From assembly GCA_030427935.1 (NCBI GenBank), contig JAUICI010000019.1, positions 1 to 32,804 on the forward strand: DNA of 32,804 bases. Reading direction: 5' to 3'. The notes beneath the pieces are model-generated. The model was not told where the DNA came from, made no database searches, and was given only the letters and a program-made list of their open reading frames with translations. The stretch comes from Bacteroidia bacterium. Lineage in GTDB: Bacteria; Bacteroidota; Bacteroidia; Flavobacteriales_D; Crocinitomicaceae. This document shows, piece after piece, positions 9,603 to 32,339 of the stretch; position 1 is the stretch's first letter, and every line of letters starts with the position of its first letter. The translations under genes were made by a program, and so were the position numbers.

Positions 9603-10069
9603 ACTATCTAATCAATTGTTTTTTACTTATTTTTCCTGTCATTCTTTGGAACTACTTCTTTTTTGAGGACTTACCTAATCCTTACCAAGAAGCCTTTTTT
9701 TGGAAAGATATTCCAGCCTACATTTCAGTTCCTGAAAATATTTTAAGAATTCCCCTTTTCGTTCTCCCATATCTAATGAAAATTCAGGCTGATGAAAAAA
9801 AATTAGTCTTCTACTTCATCACTTTAACTTTATACATGGCAAGTTGGTGCATGCAAATTTATTTTCCTGAATCTGCATGGTCAGAATCTGTCATTGGGTT
9901 CACGGCACCTGCATTTAGCGCATTATTTATAATCCTTTCGATAGGATTTATTGGAAAGCAAGCTGTCTTTGAAAAATTTCCGAGAATGGATCTTGTATAT
10001 TTTTCAATTGGAATTCCATTTATTATCTTTCATACTTGGCATGCATATTTAATTTATTCCAGATTATGA
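9599..10069 (+). CDS. Four- to five-span membrane protein of unknown function
   Basis: A 156-residue polytopic membrane protein. Hydrophobic segments lie near residues 3-21, 49-61, 68-89, 98-118 and 130-153. Start ATG 9599 overlaps the stop of the upstream hydrolase as ATGA, and its own stop overlaps the next ATG in the same way, so I chose it over the longer open frame, which reaches upstream into the hydrolase gene. It ends in a His/Trp-containing segment (FHTWHAYLIYSRL). I do not recognise the family. Coupling on both sides suggests that it works with, or is made in step with, the hydrolase and the S51 peptidase. Confidence 0.75.
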   Translation: MNYLINCFLLIFPVILWNYFFFEDLPNPYQEAFFWKDIPAYISVPENILRIPLFVLPYLMKIQADEKKLVFYFITLTLYMASWCMQIYFPESAWSESVIGFTAPAFSALFIILSIGFIGKQAVFEKFPRMDLVYFSIGIPFIIFHTWHAYLIYSRL

Positions 10070-11343
10070 AGACACTAATTCTCATTGTATCCATTCTTCT
10101 AGCAGTAAAATTAAACGCACAAAACTATGATTCCTATTACACAGGAAACACTGTAGATGCGCAAACAAATCCAACTGGAGGTATTTGCTTAATGGGAGGT
10201 GCAACCGAAAATGATGAAGCCATGAAGTGGTTTCTTCAAAGAGCTAATGGTGGAGATATTTTGGTTCTTAGAGCTTCCGGATCTGATGGTTATAATAATT
10301 ATTTCTACACCCAACTAGGTGTACCAGTAAATTCAGTTGAGACCATTGTTTTCAATAATGCACAAGCAGCCAATGATTCTTATATTCATCAAAAAATAAA
10401 CCAAGCAGAAGCCATTTGGTTTGCGGGTGGTGATCAATGGGATTATATCTCTTATTGGAGAGGAACTGCAATAGATTCCTTAATCAACCTTGGAATTCAA
10501 AATCGAAATATTGTAATTGGAGGAACAAGCGCAGGCATGGCAATTCAGGGGAAATATTATTTCACTGCTGAAAATGGAACCATAACAACGACCGATGCCT
10601 TAAATAACCCTTATCATCCGAATCTAACTGTGGATTCAGTTTCTTTTATCCAAAAAGATTATCTCAGTGATGTGATTACCGATACACACTATGATAATCC
10701 CGATAGAAAAGGAAGACATTTGACATTCATGGCTCGAGTTTATCAAGATTTAGGGACTGGCATAAAAGGAATCGCTTGTGAGGAGTACACTGCGGTTTGT
10801 ATAGACGAAAATGGAATAGCTTCTGTTTATGGAGATCATCCCAATTATGATGACTTTGCCTATTTCCTTCAACCAAATTGTGAGGTTTTAGACCCAAGTC
10901 CAGAGATTTGCAGCACTGGCATTCCTTTAACATGGTCGCATTCCTCAGAAGCCGTAAAAGTTTATAAAGTTCCAGGAACTATGAATGGAGCAAATACTTT
11001 TGATTTAAATGATTGGCAAACAGGGTCAGGAGGGATCTGGCAAAATTGGTCAGTCACACCAAATACACTAGTCGAAGCCCCTTCAATTGCACCCAACTGT
11101 AATTTATCATTATTAGAACTAAAAAGGGATTTCATCATTTATCCTAATCCTTTGCATGATGAACTAAATATCGAGCACAACTTCGGCAGTTTTCAAGTTG
11201 AGATATTAAATCTATTAGGACAGCAGGTTTTATTTTTTGAAAATCAGAAAAAATTAAATTTGAGTAATTTGGATAATGGTTCCTACATCATTCGTATTCG
11301 AGCACACAGCCATATTTTCACCAAGAAAATTATTAAAAGGTGA
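10066..11343 (+). CDS. T9SS-secreted peptidase S51 / cyanophycinase-like protein
   Basis: A 425-residue secreted protein in three parts. A signal peptide covers about 1-18 (ending LNA). The S51 peptidase domain (about 35-290) has the nucleophile elbow GGTSAGM with S155, an upstream AGGDQWDY, and THYDNPDRKGRH, in line with the Ser/His/Glu-type hydrolases that cleave beta-linked aspartyl bonds, as cyanophycinase and dipeptidase E do. The C-terminal domain (about 354-425) begins IYPNPLHDELNIE and contains NLLGQQV and LDNGSYIIRI, ending KKIIKR, a type A T9SS sorting signal. The protein should therefore be carried through the outer membrane, then released or surface-anchored. Start ATG 10066 overlaps the upstream stop. 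Whether it acts on cyanophycin, isoaspartyl peptides or another polymer cannot be told from sequence. Confidence 0.88.
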   Translation: MKTLILIVSILLAVKLNAQNYDSYYTGNTVDAQTNPTGGICLMGGATENDEAMKWFLQRANGGDILVLRASGSDGYNNYFYTQLGVPVNSVETIVFNNAQAANDSYIHQKINQAEAIWFAGGDQWDYISYWRGTAIDSLINLGIQNRNIVIGGTSAGMAIQGKYYFTAENGTITTTDALNNPYHPNLTVDSVSFIQKDYLSDVITDTHYDNPDRKGRHLTFMARVYQDLGTGIKGIACEEYTAVCIDENGIASVYGDHPNYDDFAYFLQPNCEVLDPSPEICSTGIPLTWSHSSEAVKVYKVPGTMNGANTFDLNDWQTGSGGIWQNWSVTPNTLVEAPSIAPNCNLSLLELKRDFIIYPNPLHDELNIEHNFGSFQVEILNLLGQQVLFFENQKKLNLSNLDNGSYIIRIRAHSHIFTKKIIKR

Positions 11344-11359
11344 TTTCTTATCCATTTAC

Positions 11360-11390
11360 TTTGCCAATTCAGAAAAATAGACGAATTTTG
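11360..11390 (+). promoter_or_regulatory. Putative promoter of rpsP-rimM-trmN6
   Basis: TTTG at 11360-11363 (-33) and GAATTTTG at 11383-11390 (-7, one mismatch to TAnnTTTG) are separated by 19 bases. Transcription would begin near 11396, placing both downstream hairpins inside the 5' untranslated leader. Confidence 0.55.
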
Positions 11391-11400
11391 CGCTCTTATT

Positions 11401-11453
11401 TATTAACCGAGGTTTCGTACCTCAACTATTATTAACCGGGATTTCGTATCCCA
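11401..11453 (+). promoter_or_regulatory. Two tandem covarying hairpins in the rpsP leader
   Basis: Two copies of TATTAACCG plus a hairpin lie one after the other, 29 bases apart. Copy one: GAGGT-TTCGT-ACCTC (11409-11423). Copy two: GGGAT-TTCGT-ATCCC (11438-11452). The five-base-pair stems differ at two pairs, both compensatory (A-T to G-C and G-C to A-T), while the flank TATTAACCG, the loop TTCGT and the following CAA are the same. The second hairpin ends 17 bases before the rpsP ATG. This is a candidate cis-regulatory RNA or protein-binding leader; I cannot match it to a described motif. Confidence 0.65.
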
Positions 11454-11469
11454 AACAATAAAAATAGCA

Positions 11470-12171
11470 ATGGCTACAAAAATTAGATTGCAAAGACACG
11501 GTAAGAAAGGTAAGCCGTTTTACCACATCGTGATCGCAGATTCAAGAGCAAAAAGAGACGGTAGATACATCGAGAAAATCGGTACTTACAATCCAAATGT
11601 TAACCCAGCAATTATCAACTTAGAGTTCGAAAGAGCTGTTGAGTGGTATGGAAAAGGTGCTCAACCAACTGATACAGTAAGAGCTATTCTTTCATACAAA
11701 GGGGTTCTTTACAAGTCGCACTTAAGTAAAGGCGTTGCTAAAGGAGCTTTAACAGAAGCTGAAGCTGATAAGAAATTTGATGCTTGGATGAAGGAAAAAG
11801 AAGGTAAGGTTACTGCCAAATCTGACAAATTAGCTGCTGATCAAGAAGCTGCTAAGAAAGCTGCTCTTGCTGCTGAAAAAGAAGTAAATGAAAAAAGAGC
11901 TGCAGATATCGCTGCTAAGAATGCTCCAGAAGAAATGGTAGAAGAAGCACAAGCTGAAGCTGCTGCTGAAGGAGAAGAAGCACCGGCTGCTGAAGCGTCT
12001 ACAGAAGCTGCACCGGCAGAAGAAGCTCCTACTGCTGAAGAGGCACCAGCTGAAGAAACAGCGAAAGAAGAGGCTGCTCCTGAAGCTGAAGCAAAAGCAG
12101 AGGAACCTGCAAAAGAAGAAGCTCCTGCAGAGGAAACTAAAGAAGAAGGAGAAGATAAAGCTGAAGCTTAA
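11470..12171 (+). CDS. rpsP: 30S ribosomal protein bS16 with long acidic Ala/Glu/Pro tail
   Basis: bS16 is a structural protein of the 30S subunit, acting in early assembly. Residues 1-85 are the standard domain: [35 protein letters not shown], then YNPNVNP and [12 protein letters not shown]. The protein then continues far beyond the usual 80-90 residues. It has a Lys/Ala-rich, probably helical stretch (about 95-155), then a low-complexity acidic tail (about 156-233) built of Ala, Glu and Pro, with EEAPAEE-like units. Bacteroidota bS16 proteins often carry an extension, though 233 residues is long. It is the first gene of an rpsP-rimM-trmN6 operon with only 15 bases to rimM, and is preceded by tandem leader hairpins that may control it. 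Confidence 0.96.
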
Positions 12172-12186: not shown

Positions 12187-12717
12187 ATGAACAAACAGGA
12201 TTGTTATAATCTCGGACACATCGCTAAGATCGTTGGGTTCAAGGGGCAAATTTCAGCCTTTATAGATGCTACAAATCCTTATGAATATTCAGAATTGGAA
12301 TCAGTGTTTGTTGAAATCAACAATGCGCTGGTTCCTTTTTTTATTGACTCCATCTCGATCAATGACAAAGGTTTTGCCAAAATCAAATTCGAAGGTGTAG
12401 ATACTGAATCTGAGGCAAAAGCTTTGGTTAAAAAACAACTATTCCTACCCTTAACCATTCTTCCAAAATTAGAGGGCAATCATTTTTACTATCACGAAGT
12501 AGAAGGGTTTAAAGTTCAAGATAAAGCAAAAGGCTTCATTGGTGAAGTCATCAAAGTTCTTGAGGTCAATAACAATCCTCTACTAGAACTTTCATTTGAA
12601 GGAAAAGAAATATTGATCCCGCTTCAAGATGAATTTCTTCTAAATGTAGATCGCCAAAACAAGATTTTGGAGGTGAATTGTCCGGAAGGTCTTATCGATC
12701 TGTACTTGGATGACTAA
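12187..12717 (+). CDS. rimM: Ribosome maturation factor RimM
   Basis: RimM is a 176-residue cytoplasmic factor that binds bS19 and helps the 30S head mature. The N-terminal barrel domain is recognisable (YNLGHIAKIVGFKGQISAFID, then FAKIKFEGVDTESEAKALVKKQLFLP). A PRC-barrel domain follows, with YYHEVEGFKV, IGEVIKVLEVNNNPLLEL and LIPLQDEFLLNVD. The length is that of the family. It follows rpsP by 15 bases, a conserved bacterial arrangement that supports the call. Its stop overlaps the trmN6 start by eight bases, so trmN6 translation is probably coupled to it. Confidence 0.96.
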   Translation: MNKQDCYNLGHIAKIVGFKGQISAFIDATNPYEYSELESVFVEINNALVPFFIDSISINDKGFAKIKFEGVDTESEAKALVKKQLFLPLTILPKLEGNHFYYHEVEGFKVQDKAKGFIGEVIKVLEVNNNPLLELSFEGKEILIPLQDEFLLNVDRQNKILEVNCPEGLIDLYLDD

Positions 12718-13420
12718 GTCGGTCTTCAATCTCAAACAATTTAAAGTTTCTCATGGAAAAAGCTCCATGAAAGTAGGAACAGATGCCATGATTCTGGGTT
12801 CGATTGTCCAGCACGAAAAGCCACAAAGAATTCTCGATGTAGGAACCGGATCAGGTATTTTAGCACTCATGATGGCCCAAAAATTTCCGGATTCTGAAAT
12901 CTTGGGGATTGATATCCACTCCAACAGCATTGAGGAAGCAAAAGCCAATATTTGTCAATCGCCTTACGATAAAATTCAAATCCAAAAAATTGCTTTCCAA
13001 ACACTTGCTCTAGACTCGAATCAATCTTTCGATCTGATTATTTCAAATCCTCCTTTTTTCCAAGATGATCTGAAATCAATCAACGAAAACCGAAATTCTG
13101 CTAGACACAACGATCAACTTTCTTTCAATGATTTGATCGAATCCGCGAAAAAATTGCTTACTCAATCTGGAAAATTTTGGTTTATCTTACCTACTCGATA
13201 TCATTCTGAAATTTGTAGTTTGATCGAACAAAATCAATTGTATTTGAATCAATTAATCTCCTTAACAAATGACAATCAAGAAGAGCCTGTTCGATACATT
13301 TACTCCATTTCAAATCAAGAACTAGAAATCATAGAAAAATCGATGAATATCAGAATTAAAGGCCAATACAGCTTAGAGTATATCGAACTGACCAAAGATT
13401 TCCATGATCGAAAACTATAG
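12710..13420 (+). CDS. trmN6: tRNA1(Val) adenine-37 N6-methyltransferase
   Basis: A 236-residue SAM-dependent methyltransferase of the TrmN6/YfiC group, which methylates N6 of adenine 37 next to the anticodon of valine tRNA. The Rossmann motif I is ILDVGTGSGILALMM (about 41-55), motif II has LGIDIHSNSIEEA, and the catalytic motif is NPPF at 113-116. The N-terminal block (FKQFKVSHGKSSMKVGTDAMILG type) and the RHND-like segment (SARHNDQLSFNDL) are typical of the family. Its location after rpsP and rimM makes a translation-related role fitting. A different N6-methylated target cannot be excluded by sequence alone, but this is the common family call. Confidence 0.9.
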   Translation: MTKSVFNLKQFKVSHGKSSMKVGTDAMILGSIVQHEKPQRILDVGTGSGILALMMAQKFPDSEILGIDIHSNSIEEAKANICQSPYDKIQIQKIAFQTLALDSNQSFDLIISNPPFFQDDLKSINENRNSARHNDQLSFNDLIESAKKLLTQSGKFWFILPTRYHSEICSLIEQNQLYLNQLISLTNDNQEEPVRYIYSISNQELEIIEKSMNIRIKGQYSLEYIELTKDFHDRKL

Positions 13421-32220: not shown

Positions 32221-32228
32221 TACTTTTG
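32221..32228 (+). promoter_or_regulatory. -7 box of the SRP RNA gene
   Basis: TACTTTTG matches TAnnTTTG exactly and lies six bases before the 5' end of the RNA. It is divergent from the glycosyltransferase promoter about 53 bases away. Confidence 0.6.
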
Positions 32229-32233
32229 CGCCT

Positions 32234-32331
32234 CGGGTAAGTCTTGTACGACCAGCTCCTGCTGAATCCCCCAGGATGGGAACATAGCAAGGGTAGGCGG
32301 TTGTAGCGGTGCGATGCAAGTAGCTTACCCG
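32234..32331 (+). ncRNA. ffs: Signal recognition particle RNA, small bacterial type
   Basis: The RNA folds as one long hairpin. The outer helix pairs CGGGTAAG (32234-32241) with CTTACCCG (32324-32331). The domain IV tip is recognisable: CCCCC (32268-32272), then AGG, an ATG-GGAA-CAT tetraloop stem (32276-32285), AGCA and GGG. This keeps the AGG/AGCA asymmetric loop and the GGAA tetraloop that bind Ffh. It is about 98 bases, the size of the 4.5S-type RNA. A run of ten T (32332-32341) after the closing helix serves as the terminator and touches the stop codon of the convergent thioesterase gene. Confidence 0.93.
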
Positions 32332-32339
32332 TTTTTTTT

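Follow-up and report, generated by a model that had tools for sequence, protein, structure and literature searches.

The closest described counterpart of the element analysed here is the Rfam family RF03138, the "S16-Flavobacteria ribosomal protein leader", for which Eckert and Weinberg (2020; PMC7247131) predicted a regulatory role at rpsP and rimM of Flavobacteria and named bS16 as the likely ligand. How the E. coli rpsP (trmD) operon is regulated was still unknown according to a 2024 review (PMC10931766), and bS16 autoregulation was met in the literature as a prediction only, with no demonstration found for any bacterium. In Bacteroidota, translation initiation proceeds without a Shine-Dalgarno (SD) sequence and is tuned by local structure, promoters follow the consensus TTTG/TANNTTTG, and the -7 element of F. 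johnsoniae promoters is spaced 4-5 nt from the start site (PMC6847099).

The window, a stretch of 32,804 nt from a member of the Crocinitomicaceae, carries an rpsP-rimM operon on the forward strand. The rpsP gene (11470-12171) encodes a bS16 of 233 aa, assigned by matches over cut-off to Pfam PF00886 and NCBIfam NF011094; the S16 domain is followed by an acidic, Ala/Glu-rich C-terminal tail, with more than 100 Ala/Glu/Lys-rich residues. It is followed directly by rimM (12187-12717; TIGR02273, over cut-off), the second gene of the operon. The third gene (12710-13420) resembles a TrmN-type tRNA methyltransferase, with a match to NF047853 below cut-off, whereas the E. coli operon has TrmD at this place. 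A small SRP RNA gene was found elsewhere in the window (32228-32334; Rfam RF04183, 106 bits). Upstream of rpsP lies a gene (10036-11343) for a cyanophycinase-like S51 peptidase that is T9SS-sorted. Between the two genes, an earlier note on this DNA had placed a promoter candidate ahead of two hairpins, and the candidate proved to have the right form for a Bacteroidota sigma-A promoter (consensus from PMC6847099). A -33 element, TTTG (11360-11363, forward strand), is separated by 19 nt from a -7 element, GAATTTTG (11383-11390, forward strand), and the same promoter letters are kept in the genus-mate G003. The -7 element of both genomes reads GAnnTTTG, and the consensus form, TAnnTTTG, was present at the corresponding place in 131 of 134 distinct rpsP leaders of the family. 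Since the -7 element ends at 11390, the published 4-5 nt spacing (PMC6847099) predicts a transcript start near 11395-11396 and an rpsP 5′-UTR of about 75 nt, which would include both hairpins. No promoter-like element was found downstream of 11453.

The two hairpins were confirmed in the sequence as the earlier note had described them, adjacent, with a common loop and with stems that differ at two compensated pairs. Hairpin 1 (11409-11423, forward strand; S16-leader core copy 1, GAGGU-UUCGU-ACCUC) is formed by the stem 11409-11413/11419-11423 (GAGGT/ACCTC in the DNA) and the loop 11414-11418 (TTCGT). Hairpin 2 (11438-11452, forward strand; core copy 2, GGGAU-UUCGU-AUCCC) is formed by the stem 11438-11442/11448-11452 (GGGAT/ATCCC) and an identical loop (11443-11447). 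Both are embedded in a 26-nt repeat with 85% identity and a period of 29 nt. The inner stems have predicted pair probabilities of 0.97-1.0. Around hairpin 2, an outer helix of five consecutive pairs is predicted between UUAUU (11429-11433) and AAUAA (11457-11461), with a probability of about 0.4-0.5, and the corresponding helix of copy 1 is broken and formed in part only. The 81-nt leader as a whole folds better than its own shuffles (z -1.98). When 11344-11469 was shuffled 20,000 times with its dinucleotide composition kept, two perfect hairpins of 5 bp and 5 nt, with any loop, appeared in 347 cases and such a pair with the same loop in one, which ruled out a chance origin of the pair. It is also the only same-loop hairpin pair within 60 nt in the whole window.

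A covariance model of the family leader, R1, scored 40.4 bits on copy 1 alone (11392-11440) and 52.9 bits on copy 2 alone (11421-11469). When the genome of the window was searched with R1, the rpsP leader was the single credible site (E 4.2e-5; next match E 7.7), and a mobile or dispersed repeat was rejected, because no further copy is present in this genome. The hairpins lie 66 nt after the stop codon of the upstream gene and are short, G+C-richer inverted repeats, as might be expected of its terminator or of a chance or mobile repeat. However, a U-run is absent after either hairpin on both strands, the promoter precedes them, and they are conserved together with rpsP and have no counterpart at other sites in the genome. 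A terminator was rejected on the first two of these grounds, and the whole group of explanations can be considered highly improbable.

Evidence for a selected RNA structure comes from the relatives. Each of the approximately 134 distinct rpsP leaders that were sampled from Crocinitomicaceae, and whose rpsP start could be located, carried the start-proximal hairpin, which has a UU[CUA]GN loop closed by a U-A pair; the closing pair was part of the extraction rule, so that its invariance is not evidence. The distance from the hairpin end to the AUG was 13-21 nt in every leader, and is 17 nt in the window. In an ungapped alignment (A1) of 116 family sequences, 110 of them distinct, 87.5% of the cells were paired, compared with 40-49% when the partner was slid by 1-3 columns. 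Cells changed on both sides numbered 121 against 54 in shuffles, a count that overstates significance for related sequences, and the evidence lies in the pairs that switch and in the comparison with slid partners. Two stem pairs switch between G-C and A-U, namely 19-31 (GC 59, AU 47, GU 4) and 20-30 (GC 68, AU 36, GU 6), and neither was unpaired in any of the 110 sequences. The outer helix was paired in 79% of cells across the family, with one pair switching from U-A to A-U in 28 sequences. The related hairpins expected upstream of rpsP in relatives were present in every family leader examined, and covariation was seen among them. These data show, at the level of sequence comparison, the hairpin to be an RNA structure conserved in Crocinitomicaceae, tied to rpsP and held at a near-fixed distance from the start codon.

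A search of Rfam matched copy 2 end to end with RF03138 (11428-11462), though at 25.6 bits, below the gathering cut-off of 35.7 bits. This cut-off was passed by none of 200 sampled family genomes, in which the best sub-threshold matches were again the rpsP leaders; the current Rfam model therefore misses a whole family of carriers. In the f17 genomes, the matches over cut-off also sit upstream of rpsP. The window element shares with RF03138 its position directly upstream of rpsP(-rimM), a covarying inner stem of 5 bp, a 5-nt loop, an A-rich internal loop, and a near-identical consensus, AUUAAUAACCGAGGU[5]ACCUCAAAAAUUAAU; a counterpart of the A/U outer helix is predicted for copy 2, at the moderate probability given above, and only in part for copy 1. 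The window element differs in the loop, which is UUYGN in the family (UUCGU in the window) and CGNGN in the over-cut-off f17 loci, in a shifted outer helix, and in the presence of two tandem copies. On this likeness, the element is treated as a divergent, homologous variant of the RF03138 kind and not as a formal member. Elements of this kind are already known, and the novelty lies in the variant of this lineage and in its tandem copy. In a phylum-wide search at E 0.5, R1 matched no more than 4 of 395 genomes and so reaches little beyond the family.

Taken as an rpsP leader, as had been proposed, the element is supported by the covariation across the family and by the sub-threshold RF03138 match. 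The hairpins most likely act as a tandem bS16 leader in the 5′-UTR of the rpsP-rimM mRNA, to which bS16 is presumed to bind. In such a scheme, free bS16 in excess over 16S rRNA would bind the hairpin, with recognition possibly directed to the closing U-A pair, the G-C pair below it, and a YNNGN loop. Bound bS16 might then block or stall 30S loading and so lower translation of rpsP-rimM, given that the gene lacks a Shine-Dalgarno sequence and that 17 nt separate the end of the site from its AUG. A site for a different ligand, either RimM or another RNA-binding protein, could also be imagined, since rimM lies directly behind rpsP on the same strand, but we regard it as quite improbable: no ribosomal protein gene other than rpsP is present there, and RimM, a maturation factor, is not an rRNA-binding ribosomal protein. 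Although rimM was noted under the RF03138 motif, the known r-leaders bind a protein encoded by a gene that they regulate (Eckert and Weinberg; PMC7247131). The approximately 134 leaders, their natural compensatory variants, and their single and double versions make bS16 binding, and the effect of doubling, directly testable.

Clear mimicry of 16S rRNA by the bS16 leader was considered and rejected. The 16S rRNA of two genomes (G004 and G077; loci L255 and L256) yielded no convincing hairpin that has the complete GU-YNNGN-AC core, and the assembly of the window contains no 16S rRNA. In both molecules, the hairpin CUA-CGUG-UAG, located where h17 is expected (about E. coli position 468), has a YNNG loop resembling the f17 leader loops, possibly by coincidence; YNNG loops are common in 16S rRNA, so this likeness is not evidence.

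The slot between the promoter and the start-proximal hairpin, which copy 1 occupies in the window, is filled variously among the relatives. In some it is a short stretch without structure, and in others it holds a hairpin specific to the lineage, such as CCYGUCU-CGNGA-AGGCRGG in g18, CUGUUUA-UUCGY-UAAACAG in g10, and others in g4, g11, and g20. The g18 hairpin had 100% paired cells, and in 12 sequences two of its pairs carry changes on both sides. The CGNGA-type hairpin was seen directly after the promoter at several g18 loci (L086, L089, L090, L092, L095, L099, and others), and CGAGA-loop 5′ hairpins were seen in two f17 genomes (L229 and L231). Because of this variety, the 5′ hairpin is a common but not a universal part of the leader, and its slot tolerates different hairpins; the relatives that have a single hairpin, or an unrelated 5′ hairpin, show that a second S16-type copy is not required. 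That unrelated stable hairpins follow the predicted start would fit a generic role for hairpin 1, and the hairpins could have been selected mainly to stabilise the mRNA 5′ end, or as spacers keeping the start region open, without bS16. This explanation is unlikely, however, since the start-proximal hairpin is limited to rpsP and has an invariant loop, invariant closing positions (the invariance of the U-A pair following from the extraction rule), and a near-fixed distance to the AUG, none of which a generic stabiliser would need. A bS16 leader remains the preferred reading, although the RF03138 score below cut-off, the relatives that do without a second S16-type copy, the departure of each window copy from the consensus, and the failure to find clear rRNA mimicry weigh against it.

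Within this proposed bS16 leader, the second copy has a restricted distribution. Two S16-type hairpins were found in both sampled genomes of g1, the genus of the window, and in 8 of 12 examined g2 genomes; the other family members examined have a single one. In a tree of S16 and RimM, g1 groups with g4, g20, g23, and g24 (support 100), whose leaders carry a single S16-type copy, and lies far from g2. This placement makes at least two origins of the doubling probable, the alternative being many losses. The extra copy probably stems from a local duplication older than the divergence of the two sampled g1 species, and could either add a second bS16 site or serve as a 5′-end structure. The two copies of g2 and of G003 differ in their flanks but have mostly identical 15-nt cores, a pattern suggestive of selection on both cores.

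Since both copies of G003 read GAGGT/ACCTC, the two stem differences in the window are true compensatory changes, as the earlier note had claimed. Each hairpin of the window departs from the consensus, copy 1 in its poor outer helix and copy 2 in an otherwise invariant pair, which is A-U here, whereas all the remaining 109 of the 110 distinct sequences have G-C. The arms of the two hairpins are predicted to be about equally stable (-5.4 and -5.5 kcal/mol), and the changes in copy 2 are predicted to hold cross-pairing between the copies to -0.9 and -2.0 kcal/mol. Avoidance of mispairing is one possible reason for the changes in copy 2, and relaxed constraint after duplication is another.

A tandem of this kind has a formal parallel in the guanidine-II (mini-ykkC) riboswitch, in which a gene is preceded by two short hairpins, side by side, that have the same loop and stems that covary. 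The window leader likewise has paired, short, same-loop hairpins with covarying stems before a gene. It differs in the loop, the gene, and the presumed ligand, which would be a protein, and in that most of its relatives have a single hairpin. In a broader and tentative proposal, which we think more doubtful than probable, the tandem would be a two-site bS16 sensor, evolved independently in at least two genera, that gives steeper or graded autoregulation. Compensatory change would have made the stems in the window diverge, preventing the hairpins from mispairing, with the loop recognised by bS16 being kept, and a GU-YNNRN-AC core would be the common bS16 recognition element of Bacteroidota, shared with the Flavobacteriaceae-type leaders and perhaps with Sphingobacteriales.

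In Sphingobacteriales (L003-L081), a different and almost invariant leader was observed about 60 nt before rpsP (for example, L004:1435-1492). It consists of TAnnTTTG, a CCCC(G)...(C)GGGG stem, and UAUGU-UGAAU-ACAUA shortly before the AUG. Like the Flavobacteriales leader, it lies before rpsP and behind TAnnTTTG, and its 5′ stem is followed by a hairpin with a GU-YNNRN-AC core near the AUG. It differs in being almost invariant and without covariation, and the likeness falls short of established homology. Scans of four loci at loose thresholds returned nothing relevant in Rfam, and the element is a candidate new S16 leader. A related hairpin with a UUAGG loop (for example, GGGU-UUAGG-ACCC, after AAUUAAC) was seen just before rpsP in other Flavobacteriales/Bacteroidetes MAGs (L023, L044, L052, L033, L036, and L002), and weak R1 matches were obtained before rpsP in L023, L044, L052, and L036.
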